The notes beneath the pieces are model-generated. The model made no database searches. It was not told where the DNA came from and saw only the letters and a program-made list of their open reading frames with translations. This document shows, in pieces, positions 12,431 to 28,098 of a DNA stretch of 64,000 nucleotides. A program made the position numbers and the translations under genes. How positions within the stretch are numbered: the first letter of the stretch is position 1; every line of letters begins with the position of its first letter. The stretch is from Reichenbachiella sp. 5M10 (GTDB taxonomy: Bacteria > Bacteroidota > Bacteroidia > Cytophagales > Cyclobacteriaceae): assembly GCF_002742335.1 (NCBI RefSeq), contig NZ_MDGR01000007.1:1988501-2052500 (forward strand). Direction: 5' to 3'.

Positions 12431-12440
12431 TCCTTTGTGA

Positions 12441-13295
12441 TTAGTGTGCGTGTGTTGCTTCCGCGTCGTTCTCGACAGTAGTCACGGCAAAAGCACTCAT
12501 CAGGTTGTTTCCGATCGGTTGGCTGGCAGCTGGTGCATGAGCACTAGACAAGGTCGTGAAGTCAATGTCTGTCTCTCCCGTCAGGGCTTTCAACACATCA
12601 GAGGTGATCGTCACTTCAGAAGCAGACGCACTGCTGATCATGACGTGTGTATCCATGTCCAACGTGATGGTTTTGATGTTGCTAAAATCCTCCCCTTCAC
12701 CGCCTAGGTGGTAAGCAAGAGATGCAGCTTCACTTTGTCTGCCGTGATGCTCACTTACTGCCCCATGTGCTGCAGCACCTTCGAGCTTGTATCCGATGTA
12801 GCCAGAGTTCCAGCTCCACACGTATCCATTGGCCTCACTTAGTGCACCACCTTGAGCACCCTCTGAGAGGTAGTCCATGCTCACACCGAGAGTAAAAGTC
12901 ACCCCCGTGTAGTGCCCTACAGGTACATCCTTGAGCATGATCATGTTGCCAGAGATACCATCAACCGTCTCTTCTACAAGGTAAAAACCAAGCGGCTCTT
13001 CTGCACTATACACGACTTCATCTATGTAATCTTCCGTACCTTCCATGCCTGTCAGCTTGATCTCTGAGATATAATACCCGAGCAAACCTACATTGAATTC
13101 TTGACCCAGTGCATTGGTCAAGTTGTAGTGGGTCGAGGCGTCCGCTTCGAAGCTAAGATCCTCATCTCCTGCTACATTGTCAAACATCAGCGTCACCGTA
13201 CCAGGCATGTCCATTTCGCTACCTTCGTCCTCATTGTCACACGCACTAAAAAATACAATTGCAGCCAGTGCAATCACTATATTGTAATATTTCAT
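12441..13295 (-). CDS. MbnP family copper-binding-type lipoprotein, copy 1
   Basis: This 284-aa lipoprotein (signal ending FFSAC) is a paralogue of the downstream gene with the same landmarks: GTVTLMFDNVAGDEDLSF, NALGQEFNVGLLGYYISEI and VWSWNSGYIGYKLEG. After the Trp motif it has a His-rich insert (AAAHGAVSEHHGR), and the protein ends ATHAH. These extra potential metal ligands are absent from the second copy. It is the first gene of the four-gene operon. The intergenic region upstream (13296-13539) should hold the promoter; no strong motif was identified. Confidence 0.85.
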   Translation of the reverse strand: MKYYNIVIALAAIVFFSACDNEDEGSEMDMPGTVTLMFDNVAGDEDLSFEADASTHYNLTNALGQEFNVGLLGYYISEIKLTGMEGTEDYIDEVVYSAEEPLGFYLVEETVDGISGNMIMLKDVPVGHYTGVTFTLGVSMDYLSEGAQGGALSEANGYVWSWNSGYIGYKLEGAAAHGAVSEHHGRQSEAASLAYHLGGEGEDFSNIKTITLDMDTHVMISSASASEVTITSDVLKALTGETDIDFTTLSSAHAPAASQPIGNNLMSAFAVTTVENDAEATHAH

Positions 13296-13539
13296 TATTT
13301 CGAATTGATTAAATGTATTGATAATTTCATTGAGCCCAATGACTCGGGTGGGACGATGCTAGAGCCTAGACTTTAAGAAACAAGACATTAGATCTAGATG
13401 TTAGACTTTAGACAATAACTGTAGTTCAAGCCCTTCGCCTGTGACACACAGACCATGCAGTGTGACCAAAAACCAAACTAGAACCGTCAGCCGTGATAAT
13501 CAATCTAACAATCCTTCCCACAAACAATAAATAATCAAT

Positions 13540-13923
13540 TCAACCCCGAGGTGGTGTAAAAACCTGCTGTAGATAAGCCGTATAATTCAAGATGCTAGGC
13601 AGCACCTGATACATGTTTTGGATGAGATCGATAGGCTTGTCAAAAGCAATCGTCTCCTGCGCCTGACTAAAGAAGAAAGGTGCAGACTTGATGTTGATTG
13701 TTTCGTTCTCCTGCTCTTGTTGTTCTTGCGCTGCTTGCAGTTTTTTGGCGAGGTAGCATTTGCCATCACAGTGGAGCATGGGCTTGTCTCTGTTGATACA
13801 CAGCACCTCAGCGATGTAGTCCCGACGCATCCCAAAATCCATATAGATCAGCGGCACAGCCAACGTACTGGCGAGCGTATTGAGCGCCAGCAAATAGATC
13901 AATATATGTTTGACGTGCTGCAT
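13540..13923 (-). CDS. Small Cys-rich membrane-anchored protein, possibly copper-linked
   Basis: The 127-aa protein has an N-terminal hydrophobic helix (LIYLLALNTLASTLAVPLIY), then the Cys motif LCINRDKPMLHCDGKCYLAKKL, a Gln/Glu-rich linker and a conserved-looking C-terminal tail. The spacing of the three Cys with HCDGKC is suited to soft-metal binding. From memory, small proteins with this motif accompany copper or TonB genes in Bacteroidota, but this was not checked. It sits 245 nt upstream of the MbnP operon on the same strand. Confidence 0.65.
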   Translation of the reverse strand: MQHVKHILIYLLALNTLASTLAVPLIYMDFGMRRDYIAEVLCINRDKPMLHCDGKCYLAKKLQAAQEQQEQENETINIKSAPFFFSQAQETIAFDKPIDLIQNMYQVLPSILNYTAYLQQVFTPPRG

Positions 13924-13993
13924 TGCCGCAAAAATGAATCAGTACACCCCAATTAGCAAGTGAGACAAGGTTTTTAATTTGGATTTGGTCAGA

Positions 13994-15547
13994 TCAGAGT
14001 TTCACCATTTTGCGTCGACGCAAATACTCCACGACCTTACTGACAGGAAGTTTTTCGCTCGCAGGACCACTTCGAATGTAAAATACCTCTTCTCCCACCT
14101 TGGGTTTCAAATAGGCCGCTGCACTCGCAGGTCGCACCTGCACATAGACCACCTCCTGCCCATCGATAGGTTTCATGCCAAAATCAATAAATTGGAAGTA
14201 ACTCGGTCCAATGTGCTCTTTGATCAGGTTCTTGACATGCAGCAAACATTTGTCCACACTGGGGAATCTATCCGCTGACAAACCGATCACCTCTCCCTCA
14301 TCGTTGACTCCCATAAACAACACTCCGCCTTGGCTATTGAGAAATGCCACCACGCCTTTGAGCCAAGCCAATTCGATTTCTTTGCCTGGGTTATTGGAGT
14401 GCAGGTTCATTCGCACTGTACTTTTAAACTCTATTTGCGACCCTTCCCCTTTGGCGATGAAAGCCTTGGCACTTGCTTCGAAATTTTGCATGTCCAATTC
14501 GATGGTTCGATTCTTCGGACGAGCCCGGTACACCAGCGCATAGGCTCCCATGATACCCAGCAAGATGATCAAAGCAGAGACCGATCCTACGGTCGGAAAA
14601 TTACTCTCCAATACCGAAAAGAAGTTGTCCTCTTTGGAAAAAGAGGCCAGCCAGATGCTATGCTGTGTGATGTGCAAAGGCTGAAGCCCTACCCAATACT
14701 TGGACCCAGACCAATCAAAGGACTGACTTTGGTAGTCAATAGAGTCATTCCATGCGCCCAACACCTTTTGAAAATACTCATCCAGTTCGCTGCTCGCCAC
14801 GAAAAACTGTGGAGCACGCTCCGGATCAAAAACCTCTTCTTGGTCATTGAACAAGAAGACTTCGGACTTTTGGTTTTCGCCAAATTTGGAGATCGTCGTA
14901 AACAACTCCTGCAAAGGAATATCCACCGCGGCGACTACTGTATCTCCTTCGCTATCGGTCCAACTGACCACACCACTCACTCCCCACCGCTGTGTATGAT
15001 GAAAAGAATAGGCCTCCGTCCAGATCGGCTTCTTGCGATGCAAGTGCTTGAGTCCCTCTTCGAACCACAGGCGTGTACGCGGATCGTATGAGAGCGTATC
15101 TTGCCAAGTATCGACTTCCTGCCCTGCACTATCGAGACGTATCCACTTGAACTCGTTTTGATCGATGAGATGGTAGCGAAACACCCATGAATTCTGCTCC
15201 TGATACACATAGTAGGAGTAGCCGTGTTGGTCGGCAATCGAGAGACCGGAGAGCGCTGGATTCTCCCGCAGCAGCGGGATCAGCTGTGCACTGAGCCGCT
15301 TGGGCTCGTCGATCAACAATATCTCCTCCTTGCCCCAATCTTTGAGCACAGCCGCGATGTGCTCGATCGGTGTATAAAATGCCGTAAAGTGCTCCAACGA
15401 ACGTTCAGAAAGTTGCTGGATCGCTTCCTTGGCCAGCTCTGTACGGGCCTCCTGCACCGATACCATCACAAATCCCAACAACGAACCCACCACTACCACG
15501 ATCAGTAGCGAGAGATTCAAAAACAATTTCCTAAAGCGTGGTTTCAT
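13994..15547 (-). CDS. Membrane sensor (dCache-like) fused to AlbA_2/Schlafen-type domain
   Basis: This 517-aa protein has an N-terminal transmembrane helix (about 10-30), a periplasmic Cache-like sensor region (about 35-310, with LSYDPRTRLWFEEGLKHL and VVAAVDIPLQELF typical of dCache), a second helix (about 320-345), and a cytoplasmic AlbA_2 domain (about 375-510). The last shows GEGSQIEFKSTVR, VVAFLNSQGGVLFMGVNDEG and FYIRSGPASEKLP. AlbA_2 domains occur in Schlafen-like and regulatory proteins and bind nucleic acid or nucleotide. No kinase or cyclase output is present. It is the left neighbour of the CRISPR locus, and its relation to it is unknown. Confidence 0.8.
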   Translation of the reverse strand: MKPRFRKLFLNLSLLIVVVVGSLLGFVMVSVQEARTELAKEAIQQLSERSLEHFTAFYTPIEHIAAVLKDWGKEEILLIDEPKRLSAQLIPLLRENPALSGLSIADQHGYSYYVYQEQNSWVFRYHLIDQNEFKWIRLDSAGQEVDTWQDTLSYDPRTRLWFEEGLKHLHRKKPIWTEAYSFHHTQRWGVSGVVSWTDSEGDTVVAAVDIPLQELFTTISKFGENQKSEVFLFNDQEEVFDPERAPQFFVASSELDEYFQKVLGAWNDSIDYQSQSFDWSGSKYWVGLQPLHITQHSIWLASFSKEDNFFSVLESNFPTVGSVSALIILLGIMGAYALVYRARPKNRTIELDMQNFEASAKAFIAKGEGSQIEFKSTVRMNLHSNNPGKEIELAWLKGVVAFLNSQGGVLFMGVNDEGEVIGLSADRFPSVDKCLLHVKNLIKEHIGPSYFQFIDFGMKPIDGQEVVYVQVRPASAAAYLKPKVGEEVFYIRSGPASEKLPVSKVVEYLRRRKMVKL

Positions 15548-15763
15548 ACAAATGCGTCAAAGTCGCAAATATAGAAAGATAGCCCAGACCGCAGTAAAGT
15601 CTCGATGAAATTGGTCAGCACTCCGGCTGATGCATTATTATTTTTGATTTACCACTTTTAGCATTAGTTTAACTGTCCGATCCATTCAGCACGGATCACA
15701 GCACATCTCGAGAAAATCAATTATTGGACAAATCAAGCAGAAATGCTTGGAGAGTTGGGGTAT

Positions 15764-15792
15764 AAAAAAAGCCCCACGGAGTACGCAGGGCT
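15764..15792 (-). terminator. Rho-independent terminator of tracrRNA
   Basis: On the minus strand, AGCCCTGCG pairs with CCGTGGGGCT-type sequence around a TACTC loop (15792-15770) and is followed by seven T (15770-15764). It also forms the last stem of tracrRNA. Confidence 0.9.
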
Positions 15793-15845
15793 AAGAAAAA
15801 TCTTCGGCTTATAGCCTTATTGTGATATGTTAACAAATTGGTATT
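15764..15845 (-). ncRNA. tracrRNA
   Basis: Read on the minus strand this region has all tracrRNA parts. The anti-repeat at 15845-15819 matches the array repeat at 22 of 27 positions and so can pair with crRNA. It is followed by a nexus-type hairpin (GGCT-ATA-AGCC), a small AAGA/TCTT stem, and a 9-bp terminator stem with a run of seven T. The orientation implies that crRNAs are transcribed from the minus strand and begin GTTGTGATTGG in the repeat. It is transcribed divergently from cas9, whose start codon is 28 nt away. The exact 5' end is inferred from a promoter-like sequence at 15848-15878. Confidence 0.9.
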
Positions 15846-15847
15846 GA

Positions 15848-15878
15848 CTAAAGTAGAGTAAATAATTGATATATGAAA
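15848..15878 (-). promoter_or_regulatory. Predicted tracrRNA promoter
   Basis: On the minus strand, TTTC, 19 nt, then TACTTTAG approximates the Bacteroidota consensus TTTG-N19-21-TAnnTTTG with one mismatch in each box. It would start transcription at about the first base of the anti-repeat. It overlaps the cas9 start codon region. Confidence 0.45.
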
Positions 15879-18800
15879 AGAACAATTGGAATTGATTTGG
15901 GTACTAATTCAATAGGTTGGGCTATTAGAGAAGAAAATCAACGACTCGAAAATCAAATCATAAACAAAGGTGTTTTACTATTCGACAAAGGAGTAGCCTC
16001 TGACAAAGGAAACGAATTCCCTAAAGTTCAAAAACGTACGGAAAGTAGAGGTAAAAGACGAAACTATCAAGCAGAAAAGTATCGTAAACACCAACTCCTA
16101 CAATATTTGATCGAACGCGATATGTGTCCTCTATCCATGGATGAACTAGATCAGTGGAGAAAATACAGAAAAGGGGAGAAAAGGCAATATCCACAGTCTA
16201 TCAAATTCATTAACTGGCTCAGATTTGATTTTGACGGAGATGGTAAACCTGATTTTCATCTTTTGAACAAAGACAAATACGACAGCTATTATGCATTTCG
16301 AGCTCTAGCCATCGACGAGCAGTTTAAGGATGTTTTTGATTCAAATCCTCACATTCTTGGTCGTGTCCTATATCAACTAGTACAAAGAAGAGGATTCAAA
16401 GGAAGAGACGAAGAAGAAGCGAAAACGATGCTGACTGGTTCTAAAAAGACAGGTACAGCTGGTCGTGATGAAATCGCATCTTACATTGATACACACAAAT
16501 CACTAGGTGCTGCGCTGTATTACTACCAAAAAGACAAAGGGGTCACCACACGAATTCGTCAACGTTACAACCTTAGAAAAGATTATGAAAATGAGCTAGC
16601 GGAAATATGTCGCGTTCATGGGATCAATGAATCTGACCAAAAGAAACTCTGGAAATCCATCATTTGGCAAAGACCTCTCAGGACGCAAAAAGGATCGGTA
16701 GGATTATGTACCTATGAGAAAAATAAAAGAAGAGTCAGCTTAAGTCACCCTCTTTACCAAGAATTTAAGACTTGGGTACTTATAAATAATCTAAAAATAA
16801 TTGCCCCAGCAGGATTAGACCAATCTACATACCTCAAAAATAACATCTATCCCCTATTCATAAGAAAATCAGATTTTGAAATCACTCACATTGTGAAACA
16901 GATAGAAAAAGACGGTGGACGCATGGACTCAAAATATGCTTCAACCAAGCAACAGAAGACTAAAGTAGTTTCACTTAGTAACTTCTATGATTTCGAACAA
17001 CTATTTGGTTCAGACTGGAAGGGTGTCTTAAAATTCGAAACGAGCATACACGATAGACCTTCACAGCAAACCAAACAAGTAAAACCTGAATATACTATTG
17101 AAGATATTTGGCATGTACTTAACACATTTGACGATAAAGAAAAACTGATCGAATTCGCTACCAACAAACTAAACTTAGATCAAAAAAGCGCGATTCGATT
17201 CTCTGAAATCAGGTTGAATGGTGGTCATGCCACATTGAGTCTCTCGGCTGTCAAGAGAATCCTTCCATACCTCAAGCAAGGCATCCCATACAGTAGCGCA
17301 GTATATCTCGCCAATATGCCAAAAGTTTTAGGTAGTAACTCCGTATCAGCTGACCTTATCCAATTCTTTATTGATGAGGTATCTCTTATCAATGAAAGGG
17401 TAAGTAATACTAAAACATTGAATCAAACAGTCAATGGATTAATCAAAGAACACATGAACGATGACAATCGTTATTTTATCGACAACAACCGCGAATTGGA
17501 TCCAGAAGAACACCAATTAATTGAAGACAAACTTTCAAATAATTTTGGAGTCAAGACATGGACAGATTTAGATAAAAAAATGAAAGAGCAATACAGCAGC
17601 TATGTTGCCGATCATTTTAAGAGTTTTCTACAAAAACGCATCACAGACAAAAAAGACATATTCCTACCTGCTCCACGGTTTCACCAAGAATTGTTCAATG
17701 CACTACAAGAGAAATATGACATACCGGATGAAAACATAAAACATCTCTGGCACCCCTCAGAACAAGAAAAATACAGCAATGCCAAATTGCACCACAAATT
17801 CAGCCTACATGGCAAAATACTGTTTATTGAAGAGGATCAAATAGAAAAATTCACTTCAAATAATCCAAATGCAGAAAATGAATTGATAGCACTCAAACTT
17901 TTGGGTAACCCAGAACCCATCAGTCAAGGATTCAAAAACCCAATGGCATTAAAAACCTTGTATCGTCTCAAACAACTGATCAATTATTTACTACAAACAG
18001 ATCAAATAGACGAAGACACTAAAGTAGTCATCGAAATAGCGCGAGAGCTGAACGACAACAATATGCGAGCTGCCATTCGGAGATATCAAAATCAGAGAGA
18101 ACGCGAGAACAAAAAATATGCAGCACAAATCGAAGAGATCAACCAAGAATGCGGAACCACTTTTGATCCAAATGACAAAAAACTCCTCAATAAAATACGG
18201 CTCTGGAACGAACAGAATAAACAGTGTCTCTATACAGGAGCTACTATCCACCTATGTGATATTCTCGACGGGAATAAATATGACTTTGAACACACAGTCC
18301 CTGCTAGCATGAGCTTTGATTCTGAGCTTAAAAACCTAACAATTGCCAATACCACATTTAACCGAAACGTGAAGAAAAAACGGCTCCCATCTCAACTTGA
18401 AAACCATGAAGACATTCTGCAAAGAATTGAATTTATGAAAGAGAAAGTCGAAAAATTAGAAAGGGACCTAAAGAATAAACTGAGAGATACCAAAACCTTA
18501 GTAGACAAAGGAAAAAAGGATATGGCTATTCAGGATCGCCACTTGATCAAATTTGATCTCGACTACTGGAAGAAAAAATACGAATCGTTCACCATTGAAG
18601 AGTACAAGCCACAGTGGAGAAATAGTCAGCTCAGAGATACGCAAACAATGACCAAATACGCCCTGCCCTATTTGAAAACAGTATTTAGAAACGTAACCGT
18701 ACAAAAAGGTAGTGTTGTCAATGATTTCAAATACATATACAAAGTCCTGTTAGACGAAAAGAAAGACCGAAATAAACACGCTCACCATGCACAAGATGCA

Positions 18801-19994
18801 GCTATTTTAACCTTGATACCTAATGCTTTCCACAGAGAAAAGGTTTTAGAACAATACAATCTAGCCAAAGAAGAATACCGCACATATCATACAAGCCCAA
18901 TTGGATGGAATAATTTCAAAGCATCATATATCATTGATATAGAAGATGAAGTACTCGCTAATAATCTAGTCGATGACCGCACACTCACACAGACATACAA
19001 AAGAGTGAGAAAAAGAGGCCGTATAGTTAGAGATGAGAAGGGCCGATCGAAGTGGTCAACAGGCGACACGATCAGAGGACAATTACACTCTGAGTCATTC
19101 TATGGTGCCATCAAACAACCATTAAAGGATGAAGATGGTAAAGTCCAATTTGACAAGAATGGTCATATGAAGCTAGAGGATGAGATCAAAATGGTCATCA
19201 AGCGCAACTTAAAATACAAAGTCAATCCTGATGATGATGGTTTTAAAACTTTGGACGAACTCGGTAAAGTAATGGTTGACAAAGTTCTTTTTGAAAAAAT
19301 CAAGAAGCAAATAGGTAGCACCCCTTTCAGAGAAGCACTCGAAAAAGGAATATGGATGACAGATAGACAAAGCAATCCAGTAAATAAAATTAGGCATGTG
19401 AGGTGCTTTTTTAATGCCCTGAAACACACTTCTGCTCTGCCTATTCATGAGCACACTTACGCATCAAATAAATCATATAAAAATACCACATATTCAAAGA
19501 ATAAAATGAATGCTTATTGCCTTTACTACGAAGGGGAATCAAAAGGAAAAATTGATAAGTCCATAGAGATCATCAGTCTATTAGAATTATCAAAACTAAA
19601 TTTAACAAATTCGCAAGAGCTATACACCCTTCCATTATACCAGTCAAAAGAGACCAAAAAGGGGACTTTGCCTTTGAGAAAGATTCTTAAGTCAGGAGAT
19701 AAATTCTTGCTATACAAAAATCATAAACAAGAACTTCAAGAACTTAATGTAAAACAATTGTCTCAACGATTATATACGGCCTACGAATTTGAAGCAGATG
19801 GTAGAATCAAGCTAAGACATCACTTACTCGCTGGTGATTTGACGGTAGCCAAAAAGCAATACCCTGAAGCATCTGCATTGAATTTTGGCTCCTATACTCC
19901 ACTTTATAGAATAAGTAAAGGAAATTGGAATTTTGCCATAGAAGGAATTGATTTCAATATTCAAATCGATGGTCAAATCGAATTCCTATTCTAA
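15873..19994 (+). CDS. cas9: Cas9 endonuclease, type II-C
   Basis: The RNA-guided DNA nuclease is 1373 aa, at the long end for II-C and typical of Bacteroidota. RuvC-I is IGIDLGTNSIGWAI with D8. An Arg-rich bridge helix follows (RTESRGKRRNYQAEKYRKH). RuvC-II is VVIEIARELN with E721. The HNH domain has CLYTGATIH and DFEHTVPAS with H807, followed by NTTFNRNVKKKRLPS. RuvC-III is NKHAHHAQDAAIL with D975. All catalytic residues are present, so it should be active. The C-terminal third would hold the PAM-interacting region. The gene is distinctly more A+T-rich than cas1. No csn2 or cas4 is present, which defines II-C. It is divergent from tracrRNA. Confidence 0.97.
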   Translation: MKRTIGIDLGTNSIGWAIREENQRLENQIINKGVLLFDKGVASDKGNEFPKVQKRTESRGKRRNYQAEKYRKHQLLQYLIERDMCPLSMDELDQWRKYRKGEKRQYPQSIKFINWLRFDFDGDGKPDFHLLNKDKYDSYYAFRALAIDEQFKDVFDSNPHILGRVLYQLVQRRGFKGRDEEEAKTMLTGSKKTGTAGRDEIASYIDTHKSLGAALYYYQKDKGVTTRIRQRYNLRKDYENELAEICRVHGINESDQKKLWKSIIWQRPLRTQKGSVGLCTYEKNKRRVSLSHPLYQEFKTWVLINNLKIIAPAGLDQSTYLKNNIYPLFIRKSDFEITHIVKQIEKDGGRMDSKYASTKQQKTKVVSLSNFYDFEQLFGSDWKGVLKFETSIHDRPSQQTKQVKPEYTIEDIWHVLNTFDDKEKLIEFATNKLNLDQKSAIRFSEIRLNGGHATLSLSAVKRILPYLKQGIPYSSAVYLANMPKVLGSNSVSADLIQFFIDEVSLINERVSNTKTLNQTVNGLIKEHMNDDNRYFIDNNRELDPEEHQLIEDKLSNNFGVKTWTDLDKKMKEQYSSYVADHFKSFLQKRITDKKDIFLPAPRFHQELFNALQEKYDIPDENIKHLWHPSEQEKYSNAKLHHKFSLHGKILFIEEDQIEKFTSNNPNAENELIALKLLGNPEPISQGFKNPMALKTLYRLKQLINYLLQTDQIDEDTKVVIEIARELNDNNMRAAIRRYQNQRERENKKYAAQIEEINQECGTTFDPNDKKLLNKIRLWNEQNKQCLYTGATIHLCDILDGNKYDFEHTVPASMSFDSELKNLTIANTTFNRNVKKKRLPSQLENHEDILQRIEFMKEKVEKLERDLKNKLRDTKTLVDKGKKDMAIQDRHLIKFDLDYWKKKYESFTIEEYKPQWRNSQLRDTQTMTKYALPYLKTVFRNVTVQKGSVVNDFKYIYKVLLDEKKDRNKHAHHAQDAAILTLIPNAFHREKVLEQYNLAKEEYRTYHTSPIGWNNFKASYIIDIEDEVLANNLVDDRTLTQTYKRVRKRGRIVRDEKGRSKWSTGDTIRGQLHSESFYGAIKQPLKDEDGKVQFDKNGHMKLEDEIKMVIKRNLKYKVNPDDDGFKTLDELGKVMVDKVLFEKIKKQIGSTPFREALEKGIWMTDRQSNPVNKIRHVRCFFNALKHTSALPIHEHTYASNKSYKNTTYSKNKMNAYCLYYEGESKGKIDKSIEIISLLELSKLNLTNSQELYTLPLYQSKETKKGTLPLRKILKSGDKFLLYKNHKQELQELNVKQLSQRLYTAYEFEADGRIKLRHHLLAGDLTVAKKQYPEASALNFGSYTPLYRISKGNWNFAIEGIDFNIQIDGQIEFLF

Positions 19995-20046
19995 TGTACT
20001 GTTCAAATCATCAAAATCGGAGAATAAGAATAACCACGAACAAGCC

Positions 20047-20079
20047 AGACCTGAGAGGTTTTAGAAACCTCTCAGGTCT
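20047..20079. repeat. REP-like palindrome after cas9
   Basis: Two perfect 15-bp arms (AGACCTGAGAGGTTT and its complement) flank a TAG loop. It lies 53 nt after the cas9 stop. It lacks a T-tract but would form a strong RNA hairpin and may limit cas9 readthrough. The sequence resembles palindromic repeats common in Bacteroidota genomes. Confidence 0.85.
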
Positions 20080-20123
20080 AAGAGATAAATCAGTACCAAA
20101 CAAAAAAACAGTTTCAAGCAAAA

Positions 20124-20355
20124 CAACCCCTACAGCCCAAAAAACAAGTACTGACAACAGGAAAACAACTATCTACAGACAAAAAACAAGTACTGACGAG
20201 CAACAAACGACCCTGTGCAATCGACAAACAACCACTTACATCCAAAAAATGAACGCTTTCAATCAAAAAACAACCCCTTGCAAGAGAAAAAGGCCTCCTG
20301 ACTTCTAAAAAACGACTATTTGCATCCAAAAAATGATAAGACCATACAGGCAAAA
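20124..20355. repeat. Degenerate 21-bp tandem repeat with phased A-tracts
   Basis: Eleven units start at 20124, 20145, 20166, 20187, 20208, 20229, 20250, 20271, 20292, 20313 and 20334. All are exactly 21 bp except the last (22). The approximate consensus is CAACnnCTtACAnnCAAAAAA. The A-run is the most conserved part while the rest drifts. A 21-bp period is two helical turns, so the A-tracts face the same side of the helix. The region 19995-20398 otherwise holds only the REP at 20047. Short frames here on both strands show 7-residue periodicity caused by the repeat and are not called as genes. Confidence 0.85.
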
Positions 20356-20398
20356 TGAGAAAAATTGGTTGTCATTTTTTTTAACTAAAACAAAAGTC

Positions 20399-21040
20399 AT
20401 GAATCAAAGACAAATTAATCACCTTGAAATGTTCCAAACCACCAACGACTACCTAGAAAAACAGGCAGCTGTATGGAACGCCATCCCTATCATTGGCAAC
20501 TACAAAAACCAACTCAACACCACGCTGTTGGCAATCAAACAGATGGCTGCCGATCAGGCTGATGCCCAAGTGTACATCGGCAAGTCGGTCATGGGTTTCA
20601 AAAAAACCATCGCAGAGAAGATGGATTATCTAGACGACCTGTTGGAGGCCTATGGAGAAGATGTCGGCAATGCCGAACTGGTCTCACAGGCCCACAACTC
20701 CAAAACAGACTATATCGCACTCCCCTACGAAAACTTCGAAACCAAGGTAAAGCAGGTCATTAGCCTGCTCGAATCAAACCTAAACGACATGACTGACTAT
20801 GGACTCACTGCCGAACAAATAGAAGATGTCAAACTCGATTTGGATCAATTTCTCACTTCACGCGGCAAACCTCGCGCCTATCAAGTAGCCAGTCGACAAG
20901 CCACCCAAAGCCTAGAGTCTCTCTTTGATCAAGGCAAGGAATGTATAGAAAAACTCGACCGAGTACTCAAGCGGTACAAACGTGCCAACGCCAGTTTTCA
21001 CAACGGATACCTCTCTGCGAGCAAAGTGGTGAATGATTGA
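20399..21040 (+). CDS. Helical protein of unknown function inserted in the cas operon
   Basis: The 213-aa protein is predicted almost entirely helical, soluble, with no signal peptide or visible catalytic motif. Landmarks are MNQRQINHLEMFQ, AVWNAIPIIGNYKNQLN, KPRAYQVASRQATQSLESLFDQ and the C-terminal FHNGYLSASKVVND. From memory it resembles a family of roughly 200-aa helical proteins scattered in Bacteroidota genomes and not tied to CRISPR; this is unverified. The start at 20399 (MNQRQ) is chosen over 20333 because the upstream part overlaps the tandem repeat. It lies between cas9 and the REP-associated transposase. Confidence 0.75.
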   Translation: MNQRQINHLEMFQTTNDYLEKQAAVWNAIPIIGNYKNQLNTTLLAIKQMAADQADAQVYIGKSVMGFKKTIAEKMDYLDDLLEAYGEDVGNAELVSQAHNSKTDYIALPYENFETKVKQVISLLESNLNDMTDYGLTAEQIEDVKLDLDQFLTSRGKPRAYQVASRQATQSLESLFDQGKECIEKLDRVLKRYKRANASFHNGYLSASKVVND

Positions 21041-21060
21041 TACACTAAATCTTAAACATC

Positions 21061-21093
21061 AACTTTTCCAAAGTTTGAAACTTTGGAAAAGTT
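21061..21093. repeat. REP palindrome copy 1
   Basis: Perfect 16-bp arms (AACTTTTCCAAAGTTT and its complement) surround a single G. It lies 24 nt upstream of the transposase start codon and matches the copies at 21318 and 21708. Confidence 0.95.
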
Positions 21094-21117
21094 CACCCCA
21101 AAACCACAACCAACACC

Positions 21118-21693
21118 ATGCAACCCGAAACCTACTACCATGTCTACAATCACGCCAACGGAAGCGAAAACCTCTTCCGCTCAGACGAAAACTATCGTTA
21201 CTTTCTCAGGCAATACAAAAAACACATCTCTCCTATTGCCGACACTCTTTGTTATTGTCTGATGTCTAATCACTTTCATTTTCTATTGAAAATTAAGGGA
21301 CAAAATGAACTGTCTCAAACTTTTCCAAAGTTTGAGACTTTGGAAAAGTTAACTCCACATCTAAGCAAGCAATTTTCCAACCTATTCAGCTCTTACACGC
21401 AAGCTTTAAATAAACAACTAAATAGAAAAGGCAGCCTGTTCATGAAAAACTACAAAAGGAAAAAAGTTGATGATGAAGTCTACTTGAAAAAATTGATACA
21501 CTACATCCATTATAATCCAGTGCAGGCGCAATTGGTGATCAATATGGAAGATTGGAAATTCTCTTCTTACCAGGCGATTGTATCCAATTCCCCAACAGGT
21601 ATCCTAAGAGAAGAAGTCATCGCCCATTTCGATAATCTAGAAAACTTTGAATACTGTCATAAACACCCTCCCCATCTCACAGGGATTGAATGA
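21118..21693 (+). CDS. REP-associated tyrosine transposase (RAYT, Y1_Tnp/IS200-like)
   Basis: This 191-aa HUH endonuclease-type transposase is related to IS200/IS605 TnpA. It begins QPETYYHVYNHANGSENLF. It carries the HUH motif in LMSNHFHFLLKI (about residues 42-53) and the helix with the catalytic Tyr in KLIHYIHYNPVQAQ (about residue 125-135). RAYTs are thought to mobilise REP palindromes. Here matching 33-nt palindromes lie just before the start, just after the stop and inside the coding region (21318-21350, coding for TFPKFETLEK). The gene interrupts the cas operon between cas9 and cas1. Confidence 0.92.
   Translation: MQPETYYHVYNHANGSENLFRSDENYRYFLRQYKKHISPIADTLCYCLMSNHFHFLLKIKGQNELSQTFPKFETLEKLTPHLSKQFSNLFSSYTQALNKQLNRKGSLFMKNYKRKKVDDEVYLKKLIHYIHYNPVQAQLVINMEDWKFSSYQAIVSNSPTGILREEVIAHFDNLENFEYCHKHPPHLTGIE
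21318..21350. repeat. REP palindrome copy 2, inside the transposase gene
   Basis: The sequence equals copy 1 except for one base in the right arm (GAGAC for GAAAC). It is in frame within the transposase gene and translated as part of TFPKFETLEK, so the coding sequence itself contains the mobile palindrome. Confidence 0.95.
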
Positions 21694-21707
21694 AGTAGCT
21701 CAGCTTG

Positions 21708-21740
21708 AACTTTTCCAAAGTTTCAAACTTTGGAAAAGTT
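21708..21740. repeat. REP palindrome copy 3, before cas1
   Basis: Perfect 16-bp arms as in copy 1, with C instead of G in the centre. It starts 14 nt after the transposase stop and ends 31 nt before the cas1 start codon, so it may act as a hairpin between the two halves of the cas operon. Confidence 0.95.
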
Positions 21741-21771
21741 AGAGAAAGTAGAACCAAAACACCCTAAACCC

Positions 21772-22689
21772 ATGATCAAACGAACCCTATACTTTGGCAA
21801 TCCCGCCTACCTCAGCACCAAAGACCAGCAGCTAATCATACGGTTTCCCGAAGGGGAAAAAGACAACGTGACCATCCCCATCGAAGACATCGGCGTAGCG
21901 ATACTCGATCACTATGGCATCACGATCTCCCAGGGACTGATGCATCGCCTGATGGAAAACAACGTCGCACTCATCAGCTGCGACGACCGCCACCTCCCCA
22001 CTGGACTCCATCTCAACCTCGCCGGACACACCCTCCAGTCCGAACGCTTCGCTGCACAGACGACCGCCACCGAACCTACCAAAAAACGTCTCTGGCAGCA
22101 GGTCATCTCCTCCAAAATCAAAAACCAAGCTGCTCTACTAGAAGCCATCTGCTACGACCATGACAACATGCTCCGCTGGGCGGGCAAGGTACGCTCTGGT
22201 GACCCAGACAACTACGAAGCACGAGCGGCGGCCTACTACTGGAAGCACCTCTTCGCCGCGCACACCGATGACTTCAAGCGTGGACGCTACGAGGACGAGC
22301 CCAACAACATGCTCAACTACGGCTATGCCATCCTGCGCGCCATCACCGCACGATCCCTCGTCGGTTCGGGGCTGCTCCCGACTTTTGGGATCCACCACCA
22401 CAACCGCTACAACGCCTACTGCCTCGCCGATGACATCATGGAGCCCTACCGCCCCTTCGTCGACGAACTCGTCCTCTCCATCATGGACATGGAGGACATA
22501 GACATCTATGACCTCTCTCCCGATCTCAAAAAACACCTGCTCCAACTCCCCGCCATCGATGTGATGCTGGGCAAAGAAAGACGCCCACTCATGATCGCCA
22601 TGCAATACACGACTGCCAGCCTGGCGGACTGCCTGATGGGCAAACGAGACAAGCTCAAACTCCCCGAGAGATGCAAACCCATCGCCTAA
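21772..22689 (+). CDS. cas1: Cas1 integrase, type II-C
   Basis: The 305-aa spacer-integration nuclease forms the Cas1-Cas2 complex. The metal-binding residues are recognisable: Glu in [14 protein letters not shown] (about residue 147), His in [14 protein letters not shown], and the acidic block [14 protein letters not shown]. The start at 21772 ([15 protein letters not shown]) matches the family; a TTG start at 21730 would lie inside the REP palindrome and is rejected. The gene is markedly G+C-rich, with many C-ending codons, unlike the A+T-rich cas9. Its end overlaps cas2 by 19 nt. Confidence 0.97.
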
Positions 22690-23009
22690 ACCAATACAGA
22701 ATCATGTGGGTAATGGTGTTTTTTGATCTCCCGACCGATACCAAAAAGGACAGACGCAATGCGGCCAACTTCCGAAAAAAGTTGTTGAAAGATGGATTTA
22801 GGATGTTTCAGTTTTCGATCTACCTGCGCCACTGCCCCAGTAGAGAAAACGCAGCAGTACATATCAAACGTGTCAAGATGAACCTGCCTCCCGATGGCTA
22901 TGTGGGCATCATGGTGATCACCGACAAACAATTCGGTAATATGGAACTCTACTTTGGCAAAAAGGAAAAGGAATTGCCTGCTGTACCGCAGCAGCTGTCC
23001 CTATTTTGA
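22671..23009 (+). CDS. cas2: Cas2, type II-C
   Basis: The 112-aa protein is the structural partner of Cas1 in spacer acquisition. It has the ferredoxin-like start [17 protein letters not shown] with the conserved Asp at the end of strand 1, then [20 protein letters not shown] and a C-terminal strand region ending VPQQLSLF. The ATG at 22671 overlaps the cas1 stop by 19 nt; an internal start at MWVMVFF would give a shorter form closer to other Cas2 N-termini. Either way translation is coupled to cas1. Confidence 0.95.
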
Positions 23010-23034
23010 CCATAGCCTGAATCAATCGATCAAA

Positions 23035-23056
23035 TAGGGAGGGCAATACCTCCCTA
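23035..23056. other. Hairpin downstream of cas2
   Basis: Perfect 8-bp arms TAGGGAGG / CCTCCCTA around GCAATA, 26 nt after the cas2 stop. There is no T-tract. It is the first of three successive dyads between cas2 and the array. Confidence 0.6.
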
Positions 23057-23086
23057 AATTCGGCAGACAACTTCGGCACGGATTGA

Positions 23087-23119
23087 TCCCTTGTCCTCGC
23101 TGCGAACGAGAACAAGGGA
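23087..23119. other. Second hairpin between cas2 and the array
   Basis: TCCCTTGTCCTCG pairs with CGAGAACAAGGGA with one mismatch over 13 positions; the loop is CTGCGAA. It could be a REP-like element or a structured end of the cas mRNA. Confidence 0.6.
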
Positions 23120-23133
23120 CACAAATCAATAAA

Positions 23134-23167
23134 AAACCCGACAGACTTTTGAAAACCTGTCGGGTTT
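23134..23167. repeat. REP-like palindrome / likely cas2 terminator
   Basis: AAACCCGACAG and CTGTCGGGTTT are perfect 11-bp arms. An A-run before and TTT after allow bidirectional termination. The sequence resembles a palindromic repeat common in Bacteroidota. Confidence 0.7.
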
Positions 23168-23234
23168 ATATAGCATTTTTTCACCACCCAACTCCCCTTA
23201 AAACACAACAGCACAGATAGTTACGACTACCTGT

Positions 23235-25574
23235 GCTGTTAAAAATACCAATTCGTTAGCCAATCACAACAGGTAGAAGATCTATATGAAGTAGATGGAA
23301 GCTGTTAAAAATACCAATTCGTTAGCCAATCACAACCGGGTAAGCGGCCATGGATTCAATTGTATCGCTGTTAAAAATACCAATTCGTTAGCCAATCACA
23401 ACACGGCAACGTGTTAGTAGTCCCTGCAACAGGCTGTTAAAAATACCAATTCGTTAGCCAATCACAACATGGAAATGTCTTAGTAGTCCCTGCAACAGGC
23501 TGTTAAAAATACCAATTCGTTAGCCAATCACAACTGTTGACCATTCGCACCCTCGGCTATTCCAGCTGTTAAAAATACCAATTCGTTAGCCAATCACAAC
23601 GAAACCATGCTAGAAGAAATTATCAACTCCGCTGTTAAAAATACCAATTCGTTAGCCAATCACAACTAATAGCTAAGTATTTCTCGGGTATGAAAAGCTG
23701 TTAAAAATACCAATTCGTTAGCCAATCACAACCGCACTCGGGGTTTTTTACCCACATCTCAAGCTGTTAAAAATACCAATTCGTTAGCCAATCACAACAG
23801 ATTCTCAGTGATTTTCACCTCTATTTTGGCTGTTAAAAATACCAATTCGTTAGCCAATCACAACCTACCATCAGGTAGTCATGAAAGAAGAAAAGCTGTT
23901 AAAAATACCAATTCGTTAGCCAATCACAACTATGCAAGTTGTCATTCGCTTCTAAGATCGCTGTTAAAAATACCAATTCGTTAGCCAATCACAACCGGTC
24001 ATACGCTCCTAGCTTGAGCATGATGCTGTTAAAAATACCAATTCGTTAGCCAATCACAACTGTCCAGCCCTAGATGCCAAGTCTGACGGTGCTGTTAAAA
24101 ATACCAATTCGTTAGCCAATCACAACTCATTATAGATGCTGAGCAGCTCAATAAGAGCTGTTAAAAATACCAATTCGTTAGCCAATCACAACAATGATAC
24201 AGTATCAATACATGGAAACTCCGCTGTTAAAAATACCAATTCGTTAGCCAATCACAACACCAGAGACTGGATGTGATCCTGTGTACCTGCTGTTAAAAAT
24301 ACCAATTCGTTAGCCAATCACAACTATGAAAATGCGATGTCATATTTGGTTCAGGCTGTTAAAAATACCAATTCGTTAGCCAATCACAACCATAAGAAAC
24401 GACAAAAAGAACTCTTTCCAGCTGTTAAAAATACCAATTCGTTAGCCAATCACAACTTGATCACATAAGCCTTGATCAGTCTTTGCGCTGTTAAAAATAC
24501 CAATTCGTTAGCCAATCACAACAGCGATCGCAGACGAAGTTCAGTCGCGGGGGCTGTTAAAAATACCAATTCGTTAGCCAATCACAACTGCTCTGTGATC
24601 ATGTCATTATTCTTTTTTGCTGTTAAAAATACCAATTCGTTAGCCAATCACAACTGTCGCAGCAACAGAAGAGCCGAATGGACAGCTGTTAAAAATACCA
24701 ATTCGTTAGCCAATCACAACTGTGCTGCTTTGTTGTACTTCAAGGTCGTGGCTGTTAAAAATACCAATTCGTTAGCCAATCACAACTGACGGGGTTTCCT
24801 TAAACTGCTCACTGCGCTGTTAAAAATACCAATTCGTTAGCCAATCACAACTTTCTCTCTTGATGTATTCTTATTCTCTTAGCTGTTAAAAATACCAATT
24901 CGTTAGCCAATCACAACCCAAGAGTGGAAGAATAGCATTTCTACCTGCTGTTAAAAATACCAATTCGTTAGCCAATCACAACCGTCAAGCAATTGGAACT
25001 GAATGTGAACGGCTGTTAAAAATACCAATTCGTTAGCCAATCACAACCGCCACAGCATGTTATCGTCTTGATCGCCCGCTGTTAAAAATACCAATTCGTT
25101 AGCCAATCACAACCGGTCATACGCTCCTAGCTTGAGCATGATGCTGTTAAAAATACCAATTCGTTAGCCAATCACAACTCAGATGTGCAAAATCATCCGT
25201 GAACCTATGCTGTTAAAAATACCAATTCGTTAGCCAATCACAACAGCTCAAGCAAGTGCTAGAAATCGAGCCCTGCTGTTAAAAATACCAATTCGTTAGC
25301 CAATCACAACTTTAGATGCCTCACAATGGAACGACTTGCAGCTGTTAAAAATACCAATTCGTTAGCCAATCACAACCCGCGTGGTTGGACCCGAATAGTA
25401 CGGAGCGCTGTTAAAAATACCAATTCGTTAGCCAATCACAACTCAAGTGCATGATAGTTTGACTACTGACATGCTGTTAAAAATACCAATCTGTTAGCCA
25501 ATCACAACCCTGGCAGGGAAATGATGAGAATAGGATAAGCTGTTAAAAATACCAATTCGTTAGCCAATCACAAC
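23235..25574 (-). CRISPR. Type II-C CRISPR array, 36 repeats and 35 spacers
   Basis: Repeats are 36 bp; on the plus strand they start GCTGTTAAAAATACC and end CCAATCACAAC. Spacers are 30 nt except six of 29 nt (after repeats 11, 12, 24, 26, 27 and 29). All repeats read as identical except number 35 (25473-25508), where TC is changed to CT. The tracrRNA anti-repeat shows that crRNAs are made from the minus strand, i.e. towards cas2. Spacer 12 (23996-24024) and spacer 29 (25114-25142) are identical. Spacers 3 and 4 are near-identical. A decayed partial repeat follows at 25600. No other array lies in the window. Confidence 0.99.
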
Positions 25575-25791
25575 CAATGAGTACAAAGTATTACAAAGGG
25601 CAGTTAAAACACCCCATACATTTGTTCATCGCAAGATATCTCTTCTCCGATCTTATCCTGAAGTTCACCTAGCAAATTCTGCAGTTCACCGAAACTCACT
25701 TGAAGACGTGAGCAAAAGCCTCTATCCTTGTCTTGTAATTGATGAAAACAACAAGCGAGTAATCAATCACAGAGCTGAAAAGCTCCACTGA
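25565..25791 (+). pseudogene. Possible truncated gene remnant abutting the array
   Basis: One plus-strand frame stays open from within the last repeat to a TGA at 25789, with protein-like content in its second half (PCLVIDENNKRVINHRAEKL). It has no ATG, GTG or TTG start that makes sense and is followed 37 nt later by a plus-strand terminator. It may be the 3' end of a gene cut by array growth or deletion. The opposite strand is also open here, so coding status is uncertain. No family was recognised. Confidence 0.3.
25600..25615 (-). repeat. Decayed terminal half-repeat of the CRISPR array
   Basis: GCAGTTAAAACACCCC resembles the plus-strand start of the repeat (GCTGTTAAAAATACC) and lies one 25-nt spacer-like interval beyond the last full repeat. 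Together with the mutated repeat 35, it suggests this is the old, leader-distal end. Confidence 0.5.
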
Positions 25792-25827
25792 AATAGAATA
25801 GTAATTTAGTCTTTCATAATCATGCTT

Positions 25828-25866
25828 AAGCTGCTGATCCGGACGGGATGAGCAGCTTTTCTTTTT
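25828..25866 (+). terminator. Rho-independent terminator right of the array
   Basis: AAGCTGCT and AGCAGCTT enclose an inner ATCC/GGAT stem, followed by TTTTCTTTTT. It reads on the plus strand although no intact plus-strand gene precedes it. Confidence 0.8.
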
Positions 25867-26119
25867 ATAGGCTATTGACAAATCCTATTGGCCCTTACGG
25901 ATCACGCCGTATTTCTGGGGCATTGATCCAAGATCACTTCGAAATTCAACAGTCATGGTTCGACATTCATCATTACTTTTTTGCTAAACAACCACCTACT
26001 ATGAGTCTTTGAACCAATGTATACACAATGGAAAGCATGAATATCCAATGCGCCATGTCGAATATTGATTTGGATTCCTCTATTTACGGACTCATCCGTT
26101 GGTACTGGAGGCCGACATT
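25867..26119. other. Intergenic region without a recognisable gene
   Basis: Between the terminator and the MFS gene stop only short frames without family resemblance are seen. The sequence may be decayed coding DNA. No repeat or RNA structure was recognised. Confidence 0.4.
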
Positions 26120-27289
26120 TTACAATATACTCGATTGACCCTTTCGTTGGTTTCGGATCAGAATCACACCCCATGCGATCAATACGCCCGAACTGGCCAT
26201 CGCAGCACCGACGAGATCGGCAGAGGTCAATCCATAGCCCAAAGCAATGGGTAAGCCTGCAAAGTAGGCACCACTGGCATTGCCCATATTGAATGCGCTT
26301 TGGTTGAGCGAGGAGCCTAGGATTTCTGAACCTTTGGCGGTATTGATCATCACCATCTGGATGGGAGTCCCCACTGTGAAAGCCACTACACCAATCACAA
26401 AAGTCATCACCAGTACCCAGGTAGGATCATGTGCCAGGAAGGTATTGATCACCAAGAGCAGAGCCATCGTGGCGAAGCTCACGATCACCGAGTGAATCGG
26501 CGACAGGTAATCGATCATCTTGGCTCCTAGTATGTTGCCAAGTACCATACCCAAACCTGCCAAGGTCATGGCATAGCTCACTACATGATCTGGGTGACCT
26601 GCCACTTCGGTAATCAGGGGTGCGATGTAGCTATACCAGGCAAATAGTCCTCCAGTCCCTACTGTGGTGAGCATGATCACTGCCCATAGTTCGGGGTTTC
26701 GAAACAGCTTGATATCCTGCGCAAAACCCGCAGCAGAGGACTTGGGCAACGGTGGCATCCAGGCTTTGATACTGGCCAAAGCCAACAAGCCTACACCTCC
26801 CGTAATCATGAAAGCAAGACTCCAATGGAAATGATGCCCGAGGTAGGTGCCGATGGGTACACCGATGACATTGGCCACTGTGAGACCGCCAAACATCATG
26901 GCAATGGCTCGTGCAGACTTGCCCGGCTTGCACACTTGTCCTGCCACCACAGCGCCAATTCCAAAAAAGGCCCCATGAGGCATCCCTGACAAAAAGCGCG
27001 TGACCAGCAGTACCGCGTAGCTCTCCGAAAAGGCAGACAGCGTATTGAATACCGTAAACCAAATCATGAGGAGCATCAGCACCACATGCGAAGGCCAGCG
27101 CCCTCCTATTGCCGAAAACAACGGAGCGCCTACCACCACCCCGAGGGCATATGCCGCTATAAAATGTCCCGCTTCGGGAATCGTCAAGTCCAAGGCTGTG
27201 GCCACATCTGGCAAGATCCCCATCATCACAAATTCGGTCATTCCAATCCCAAACCCTCCTATCGCTAGGGCCAACAATGCTTTGTTCAT
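26120..27289 (-). CDS. MFS exporter of the DHA1 (AraJ-like) type
   Basis: The 389-aa protein has about twelve hydrophobic segments and the features of DHA1 drug or sugar efflux transporters: an N-terminal GFGIGMTEFVMMGILPDVA, the motif-A-like GRWPS loop after helix 2, VTRFLSGMPHGAFFGIGAV in helix 4, and ANVIGVPIGTYLG in helix 5. Such proton-driven inner-membrane exporters act on diverse small molecules. The substrate cannot be predicted. It is monocistronic in appearance. Confidence 0.9.
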   Translation of the reverse strand: MNKALLALAIGGFGIGMTEFVMMGILPDVATALDLTIPEAGHFIAAYALGVVVGAPLFSAIGGRWPSHVVLMLLMIWFTVFNTLSAFSESYAVLLVTRFLSGMPHGAFFGIGAVVAGQVCKPGKSARAIAMMFGGLTVANVIGVPIGTYLGHHFHWSLAFMITGGVGLLALASIKAWMPPLPKSSAAGFAQDIKLFRNPELWAVIMLTTVGTGGLFAWYSYIAPLITEVAGHPDHVVSYAMTLAGLGMVLGNILGAKMIDYLSPIHSVIVSFATMALLLVINTFLAHDPTWVLVMTFVIGVVAFTVGTPIQMVMINTAKGSEILGSSLNQSAFNMGNASGAYFAGLPIALGYGLTSADLVGAAMASSGVLIAWGVILIRNQRKGQSSIL

Positions 27290-27416
27290 ATTTCTTCCAT
27301 TCAGGGTACAAGATTAGAGGATTGCTTGCACATAATCACCATTCAGACCCTATACGATTCGCTGTGATTTGACAGTGCTTTACCTCAGGTGTGATTTCCC
27401 CACCTGGACGCTATTG

Positions 27417-27455
27417 CACACAAAAAAACCGGCCAATGACCGGTTTTTTTGTGTG
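27417..27455 (-). terminator. Bidirectional terminator after the YceI gene
   Basis: A near-perfect palindrome (CACACAAAAAAACCGG and complement around a CCAATGA-type loop) with A and T runs on both sides lies just downstream of the YceI gene and upstream of the MFS promoter region. Confidence 0.9.
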
Positions 27456-27468
27456 CTTGCTTCCTGTA

Positions 27469-28098
27469 TCAGGGTTTCGCTACGATATCCAACTTGATCG
27501 TGATGTCATCTGACAAAATCATGTCTTCCATATAGTGTACCCAGCTCACCTCATAGTCCTGACGGTCAAATACCAAGTCAGCCGAAGCGGTCAATCCTTC
27601 TGGAGTAGCTGTCAAAGAAGTGATGGTGGCTGTTTCTTCTTTGGTGATCCCTCTCACAGTCAAATCACCTGTCAAGGTGTTGCCACTGTGCGATTTGATC
27701 ACGAAGGTAGAGGTCGGGTTTTCTTCGACCATGAAGAAGTCCTCGGTAGACAAATGCGCCACCAAGTCAGAGGCAGGGTGCTCTTCCGAATAAGAAGCCG
27801 AATCCAAAGGCTGAATGGTGGTCATGTCGATGACCACTGTACCTCCTACGATCGAATCCCCAACAGTGCTCACTGTACCTTCAGCGATACCGATCAAGCC
27901 GTTGTGGCCATATACGCCTGCTACTTCGCCAGACCAATTCACTGTAGAGGCACTTTGATCCACGGTGTATGTCATGGCCTTGGCCTCAGAGGCCACCGCA
28001 TCGGTAGTGGCTTCTTCTGTCGTACTTTTCTTTCCTCCACAAGCAGTCAGAATGGCTGCCGAGAGGATAGTCATCATCAATGTATTTCTCGTATTCAT
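27469..28098 (-). CDS. YceI-family lipocalin-like lipoprotein
   Basis: The 209-aa lipoprotein has a signal ending LTACGGKK, a Thr/Ala/Glu linker, and a YceI domain from about residue 42 (TYTVDQSASTVNWSGEVAGVYGHNGLIGI) to the end. YceI proteins form a lipocalin-like barrel that binds isoprenoids or similar amphiphiles and respond to stress or pH. The domain shows the typical FMVEENPTSTFVI and LTGDLTVRGITKE repeats. The start at 28098 (MNTRNTLMM) gives a normal lipoprotein signal; the longer frame to 28215 is rejected. It is downstream of sodC on the same strand. Confidence 0.88.
   Translation of the reverse strand: MNTRNTLMMTILSAAILTACGGKKSTTEEATTDAVASEAKAMTYTVDQSASTVNWSGEVAGVYGHNGLIGIAEGTVSTVGDSIVGGTVVIDMTTIQPLDSASYSEEHPASDLVAHLSTEDFFMVEENPTSTFVIKSHSGNTLTGDLTVRGITKEETATITSLTATPEGLTASADLVFDRQDYEVSWVHYMEDMILSDDITIKLDIVAKP

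Follow-up and report, generated by a model that had tools for sequence, protein, structure and literature searches.

A type II-C CRISPR array in Reichenbachiella sp. 5M10 carries two adjacent spacers, 3 and 4, that are near-copies of one another and differ only at four silent positions on the side predicted to face the PAM. We consider it probable, at roughly 0.6, that this pair records re-acquisition of the same protospacer from a seed variant of one mobile element, after the guide made from spacer 4 had failed on that variant. Near-twin spacers in related bacteria are biased in the same way, which points to older memories being renewed once the invader has changed. All coordinates below refer to the window, the whole stretch of 64,000 nucleotides that was analysed.

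Spacer 3 (23403–23432, minus strand) and spacer 4 (23469–23498, minus strand) are identical, without any shift, at 26 of 30 bases, and the four mismatches are at positions 2, 5, 8 and 11 from the PAM side, exactly as an initial annotation of the sequence had reported. In 300 shuffled spacer sets the best unshifted pair of any set reached 20/30 (median 15), and the match between spacers 3 and 4 is therefore not a chance one; within the array, the next best pair after 3/4 and 12/29 has 17 matches with shifts of up to 8 allowed. Two of the changes are transitions and two are transversions. Both spacers are open on the plus strand in the frame GNVLVVPAT, where no residue is altered: the three complete codons affected are synonymous (GGC/GGA, AAC/AAT and GTG/GTC, correctly read in the annotation), and the fourth change, NAC/NAT, lies in a codon split by the spacer edge and is synonymous for any first base. 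In the minus-strand frame that aligns with the same wobble positions (VAGTTNTLP/VAGTTKTFP), two of the four changes alter a residue. The chance of four differences sharing one codon phase is about 0.023, that of all of them falling within the first 11 positions is 0.012, and that of hitting the first four of the ten wobble sites is 1/210. The pair is genuine and bears the mark of coding sequence.

These features bear on two explanations that would place the origin of the pair inside the array or the assembly. One repeat-spacer unit could have been duplicated within the array, with one copy mutating afterwards. The adjacency of spacers 3 and 4 is in keeping with such an event, and block duplications are present in four of the surveyed arrays described below (L170, L195, L205 and L209). 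Drift within an array, however, would ignore codons and spread evenly, whereas here the four changes share one phase and none alters a residue, and the repeat between the two spacers is perfect; we regard this origin as highly improbable. Error in sequencing or assembling a repeated region, of which surveyed array L046 looks like a case, is more improbable again: 35 of the 36 repeats in the window array are perfect, the changes are silent and of mixed type, and a second genome of the genus (G002) has a near-duplicate pair of its own.

The array (23235–25574, minus strand) consists of 36 repeats of 36 nt and 35 spacers of 29–30 nt, with its crRNAs predicted on the minus strand. Upstream of it, all on the plus strand of the window, lie cas9 (15873–19994; 1373 aa, matching Pfam HNH_4, the PADLOC Cas9 models and NCBIfam TIGR01865 at 309 bits against a cut-off of 100), a type II cas1 (21772–22689; TIGR03639, 301 bits, cut-off 120) and cas2 (22671–23009; TIGR01573, 67 bits, cut-off 24.5). 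A Pfam and NCBIfam scan of the six open reading frames spanning cas9 to cas2 found neither csn2 nor cas4. As judged from the sequence, a locus with Cas9, type II Cas1, Cas2 and a predicted tracrRNA, and lacking csn2 and cas4 between cas9 and cas2, is a type II-C CRISPR-Cas system.

The interval between cas9 and cas1 holds further features. Two reading frames (19994–20308, 104 aa; 20333–21040, 235 aa) gave no Pfam or NCBIfam match, and a third (21118–21693) resembles a REP-associated transposase at 59 bits, under the cut-off of 80 for that model. A 33-bp palindrome, AACTTTTCCAAAGTTT...AAACTTTGGAAAAGTT, occurs before, inside and after the transposase-like frame (21061–21093, 21318–21350 and 21708–21740), and no further copy with up to one mismatch was found in the genome. 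When window positions 15873–22689 were compared with the corresponding locus of a sister species (G001, L038:6298-12490), the repeat was found to be identical, Cas1 to be 89% identical and the flanking genes to be homologous. The Cas9 protein of that species has 1209 aa and shares about 24% identity with the window Cas9 over the aligned part. It seems that cas9 was exchanged while the repeat and the adaptation genes stayed.

The orientation of the guides was assigned by prediction and comparison, the strand of the array being called from the predicted tracrRNA gene and the repeat motif. An anti-repeat complementary to the array repeat lies upstream of cas9 (15819–15854), and the predicted tracrRNA (15763–15854, minus strand) continues from it into a tail that is predicted to form three hairpins, with a terminator-like T-run at the final one. 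The stretch 15763–15856 folds at -20 kcal/mol (z -1.99; 7 of 200 shuffles were equally good), and no Rfam family reached its gathering score within 12000–28000. A tracrRNA on the plus strand would have no space for a tail, as cas9 starts only 19 bases beyond the anti-repeat. With the tracrRNA on the minus strand, the crRNA repeat would read GTTGTGATTGGC... on that strand, and it follows that spacer position 1 would be the 3' end of the guide and lie next to the PAM.

Alignment of the array flanks of four genus genomes revealed a conserved leader-proximal block of about 36 bases immediately before the first repeat (23199–23234, plus strand), at the end where new spacers enter, and no conserved block at the opposite flank. 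The sole changed repeat, number 35 of 36 (25473–25508, minus strand; two changes), is near the far end, consistent with the old end lying there. Taken together, the conserved leader flank and the changed far-end repeat indicate that new spacers enter beside cas2, and hence that spacer 3 is newer than spacer 4. From the strand of the tracrRNA and the side of the leader, crRNA transcription is predicted to run towards the leader. The window orientation agrees with that given for a Flavobacterium II-C system in passages of two published accounts, namely a downstream PAM, transcription towards the leader and a leader-facing PAM end (PMC5524643, PMC8092290). The tracrRNA prediction, the leader and the published II-C orientation thus concur with the initial annotation in placing the crRNAs on the minus strand and the four differences on the PAM-proximal side. 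The annotation had also cast spacer 4 as the one that restores targeting of a variant missed by spacer 3; here the order has to be reversed, since the leader adjoins spacer 1 and it is spacer 3 that would renew spacer 4.

Under the reading that we favour, spacer 4 would have been captured first, from a phage or plasmid protein gene reading ...GNVLVVPAT. The spacer 4 guide would cut poorly a variant that carried four silent changes among the 11 bases nearest the PAM; left uncut, that variant would keep its protospacer intact for capture and would give an advantage to the cells that captured it. Spacer 3 would then have been added at the leader, soon after spacer 4. Had the guide still been cutting, the protospacer would have been destroyed and the cell protected, with little to capture and little to gain. 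That two elements existed, that the spacer 4 guide failed on one of them and that selection followed is what we infer from the pair. Four changes are more than escape needs, and have the look of a relative that had diverged beforehand or of a patch acquired by recombination. Capture from seed variants predicts near-twins in the same register, with differences on the PAM side that are often silent, as in conserved protein genes, and with both partners acquired close in time. The close pairs found in a survey of other arrays fit this prediction.

The survey was prompted by the pairs in the window and in G002. It covered the window array, four further genomes of the genus, of which three had an array, 115 Cas9-gene stretches from the family and class, and 54 stretches from one order of the class, where 94 genomes with Cas9 supplied 40 long stretches and 14 short ones at the expected array site. 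Cas9 searches in the family of G599, the genera of G661 and G590 and the order of G547 added few new genomes, none of which contributed stretches. Altogether 174 loci were examined, 117 of them with usable arrays, giving 125 arrays, 3,136 spacers and 56,507 within-array pairs. Pairs were accepted when matches minus twice the mismatches came to at least 12 at a shift of at most 2, the position of the differences being ignored. Seven of the 85 arrays in the first batch were dropped (six spurious repeats and one overlapping sub-array), as was one in a batch of 37; three L088 spacers stay double-counted. Two out-of-register pairs were excluded: L171 3/13 (shift 11, differences at 12 and 15) and L037 11/12 (shift 2, no difference). 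The latter are adjacent spacers of G002 that overlap with a shift of two bases, and therefore represent one site captured in two registers.

Guides were oriented by the repeat motif, and outside the window the orientation rests on that motif and the side on which cas2 lies. Of the 12 arrays that bear pairs, 11 share the window's arrangement, with the PAM side facing cas2. The remaining array, L198, is flipped relative to cas2 and was kept because a leader-like flank, recognised by eye, lies on its PAM side. A search of the pair-bearing arrays outside the genus for anti-repeats found none in L170, L173, L187, L198 and L205, and mixed strands in the others. PAM-side widths of 8, 10 and 12 were all tried and gave the same direction in each case, the seed length of these Cas9 proteins being assumed.

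Twelve near-duplicate pairs with differences, a small set, were found among the 125 arrays outside L046. Counted from the PAM side, the differences lie at 2, 5, 8 and 11 in window 3/4; 3 and 6 in G002 10/14; 2, 17 and 26 in L125 43/53 (shifted by one); 8 in L158 6/7; 10 in L163 14/21; 3, 4, 10 and 16 in L169 17/19; 1 and 16 in L170 14/27; 4 and 6 in L173 1/3; 3, 9, 12, 24, 27 and 30 in L183 12/20; 7 and 9 in L187 27/30; 2 and 5 in L198 16/18; and 2, 5 and 13 in L205 1/6. The PAM-proximal 12 bases hold 24 of the 32 differences, against 12.9 expected, and the PAM-distal 12 hold 4 (permutation p 5e-5; 0 of 20,000 codon-aware permutations). Because the window and G002 pairs had prompted the survey, the tests were repeated with the window pair removed (20/28 differences in the PAM-side 12, p 0.0005) and with the whole genus removed (18/26; permutation p 0.0016, codon-aware p 0.0006). 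Every one of the 12 pairs has at least one change within 10 nt of the PAM, the mean position of the differences falls in the PAM-side half in 10, and in 7 all differences lie inside the PAM-side 12. The initial annotation had held that seed changes would cost a guide its targeting; the PAM-side bias lends this statistical support, the loss itself being a predicted effect.

The near-duplicates are also enriched for silent change. A stop-free frame in which all differences are silent exists for 8 of the 12 pairs, where 3.0 would be expected if all substitutions were alike (p 0.0002) and 3.8 at the observed share of transitions (p 0.002), the set comprising 22 transitions and 10 transversions; in the other four pairs an amino acid changes even in the best frame. 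The pair in G002, whose array has the same repeat as the window and whose Cas9 is 98% identical, differs at just two positions, 3 and 6 from the PAM side, and in the frame GIPSYQQAS neither change alters a residue. Partners lie close together in their arrays, at a mean distance of 0.13 of the array length against 0.33 expected (p 2e-5). Among 1,776 first-batch spacers no near-match sharing an 8-mer was found between different loci.

The positions of the changes also bear on how the variant arose. A Cas9 cut near the PAM could have been repaired with a copy in a related phage or prophage as template, so that a patch of silent sites was converted and the patched phage was captured again. This would alter the origin of the variant and not the re-capture itself. 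The four adjacent wobble sites that changed, next to six that did not (the 1/210 arrangement), are what such a patch might leave, and repair near the cut may shape where escape changes fall, according to a passage of PMC10132644. Conversion beside the cut nevertheless sits poorly with the five of 12 pairs that have changes beyond the PAM-proximal 12 (two of three in L125, three of six in L183, one of two in L170, one of three in L205 and one of four in L169), and we think it distinctly unlikely.

No protospacer of spacers 3 and 4 was found in IMG/VR, in the genome collection, among phage and plasmid records, or in the genomes of the organism itself and of its relatives. Against IMG/VR, the 19-nt core common to both spacers gave no match, and a pattern degenerate for the encoded peptide gave two, at no more than 22/30 and in neither case with the GNVLVVPAT frame as the longest open one. 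The same pattern had 14 matches in contigs of the genome collection, the best at 23/30 in a Verrucomicrobia MAG, and these were not accepted as protospacers; in five of them (L023, L028, L030, L033 and L036) the GNVLVVPAT frame is the longest open one, but the contigs belong to unrelated bacteria. The whole array matched 91 phage records at E values up to 10, of which 82 are from Vibrio and the best 40 of the 91 represent one weak match in Vibrio phages; among plasmids it matched a single record (E 8). In the organism's own genome spacers 3 and 4 match only the array. The pattern had no match in 58 relatives, and a DNA search of 390 family genomes, the organism's own included, gave matches in 19 that consist of related arrays and weak matches, with no protospacer; two candidate places were scored per genome in that search, so that a protospacer could be missed. 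Corresponding patterns for other pairs gave two matches of at most 22/30 (G002 10/14) or none (window 12/29 and the L183 and L170 pairs), and arrays L170, L183, L163 and L205 had no convincing protospacer in phages. The annotation had traced spacers 3 and 4 to homologous genes of two related phages or plasmids: a protein-coding origin is supported, both by the silence of all four changes and by the excess of all-silent frames in the survey, while the searches yielded no protospacer to identify the genes.

One phage match was of another kind. The II-C array at L183:11496-13744 is matched by ten Riemerella-named phage records, OR089151.1 among them, and by one Shigella-named record. The Riemerella-phage matches run mostly over the repeats, with three pieces in CRP19, and short CRISPR-like runs of repeats may be present in these phages.

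Identical duplicates bring in the question of capture hotspots. In the window, spacer 12 (23996–24024, minus strand) and spacer 29 (25114–25142, minus strand) are identical over 29 nt and lie 17 units apart. The surveyed arrays contain 23 isolated identical pairs, about twice as many as the near-duplicates, and these too are nearer to one another than chance would have it (0.22, p 0.003). Three of them have unequal spacer lengths, which argues for separate capture, and the frequency of identical duplicates implies that repeated capture of one site needs no seed change; hotspots must also play a part and may account for some of the pattern. It can thus be argued that the protospacer of spacers 3 and 4 was simply one that is often captured, and that co-circulating relatives were sampled twice while the first guide was still working. 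Besides the identical pairs, the uneven distribution of F. columnare II-C spacer targets along the phage, reported in part of PMC8092290, and the lack of PAM-side bias in more diverged pairs are in line with this argument. It does not predict the PAM-side clustering in close pairs, however, where 24/32 were observed against 12.9 expected, with only 4/32 in the PAM-distal 12. Resampling of a hotspot is therefore an unlikely account of the pair, if one that deserves to be taken seriously.

The more diverged pairs are 11 in number outside L046 (at least 64% identity, below the cut). With the two L206 rows counted once, 37 of their 91 differences lie in the PAM-side 12, which shows no bias, and none of the 11 has an all-silent frame. 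Some are old divergences and some may be chance matches; those in L174 and L206 look truly related, and the others may have arisen by chance. Our confidence in re-acquisition from a seed variant is lowered because these looser pairs are unbiased and because the silent-frame test is weaker when transitions are weighted.

Array L046 (genome G106, 13500-16508) was treated separately. It has 15 qualifying pairs, 8 of them non-redundant, together with tandem identical spacers and scattered changes in its repeats, and all 14 differences in the non-redundant pairs are transversions. It was left out because of these transversion-only differences and scattered repeat changes, and is probably an assembly or sequencing artefact. 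Taken alone, L046 is unbiased, with 7/14 differences on the PAM-side 12 against 5.6 expected; with its eight pairs added to the survey, 31 of 46 differences lie on the PAM side (18.5 expected, permutation p 0.00015).

Renewal of this kind has a counterpart in a Legionella type I-C array, where a passage of PMC5071653 describes paired spacers of which the older mismatches in the seed or PAM and the newer matches. As we propose for the window, two spacers of one array are there directed at one element, and the pair is read as capture after escape. Measured against memory renewal of the Legionella type, the window has both two spacers of the same array in one register and differences on the PAM side, with the seed length assumed. 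The Legionella system as described is type I, with primed acquisition invoked, a known target and overlapping stretches, whereas the window is II-C, its spacers share exactly the same register and the searches found no protospacer. Near-identical spacers in type I-E and I-G arrays of Bifidobacterium lactis, with differences of a few nucleotides, are sorted by seed location in PMC12915315; these systems are likewise type I, unlike the window, and the passage compared contains no test of position bias or synonymy.

Closer in type is F. columnare, for which passages of PMC5524643 and PMC8092290 describe a II-C system that resembles the window in its leader-ward transcription, its leader-facing PAM end and the addition of new spacers at the variable end. 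Its phages later changed in the targeted protospacers. The four protospacer changes singled out there are non-synonymous, whereas all four in the window are silent, and the passages compared do not describe near-duplicate spacers. Under Cas9 pressure, phage changes were confined to the PAM and seed in the part of PMC10132644 that deals with them; that work concerns laboratory phage populations and SpCas9, whereas the window holds the memory of a wild array. A review of array dynamics treats repeated spacer blocks as duplications and, in the passage concerned, considers it conceivable that the same spacer is taken up twice (PMC8047081). A limited search of open-licence literature, and thus a weak negative, found no systematic account of such renewal in type II systems. 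The principle of memory renewal is already in print for type I; the position bias across II-C arrays may be new.

We advance only tentatively, as a possibility, the wider proposal that type II-C systems of the Bacteroidota regularly renew memory by capturing exactly the same protospacer again from an invader with a variant seed. Because Cas9 destroys a protospacer that it recognises, re-capture at the same site would on this proposal be mostly limited to uncut variants, and the arrays would record seed changes in coding sequence, a natural assay of the mismatches that each Cas9 does not tolerate. If the bias holds, near-duplicate spacers would document how targets changed and memories were renewed, and bacterial genomes would suffice to read them, with no need for the sequences of phages. 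Such spacers would reveal which positions are important to little-studied Cas9 proteins, and would make it testable whether a type II system returns to a site that has changed or does no more than add new ones.
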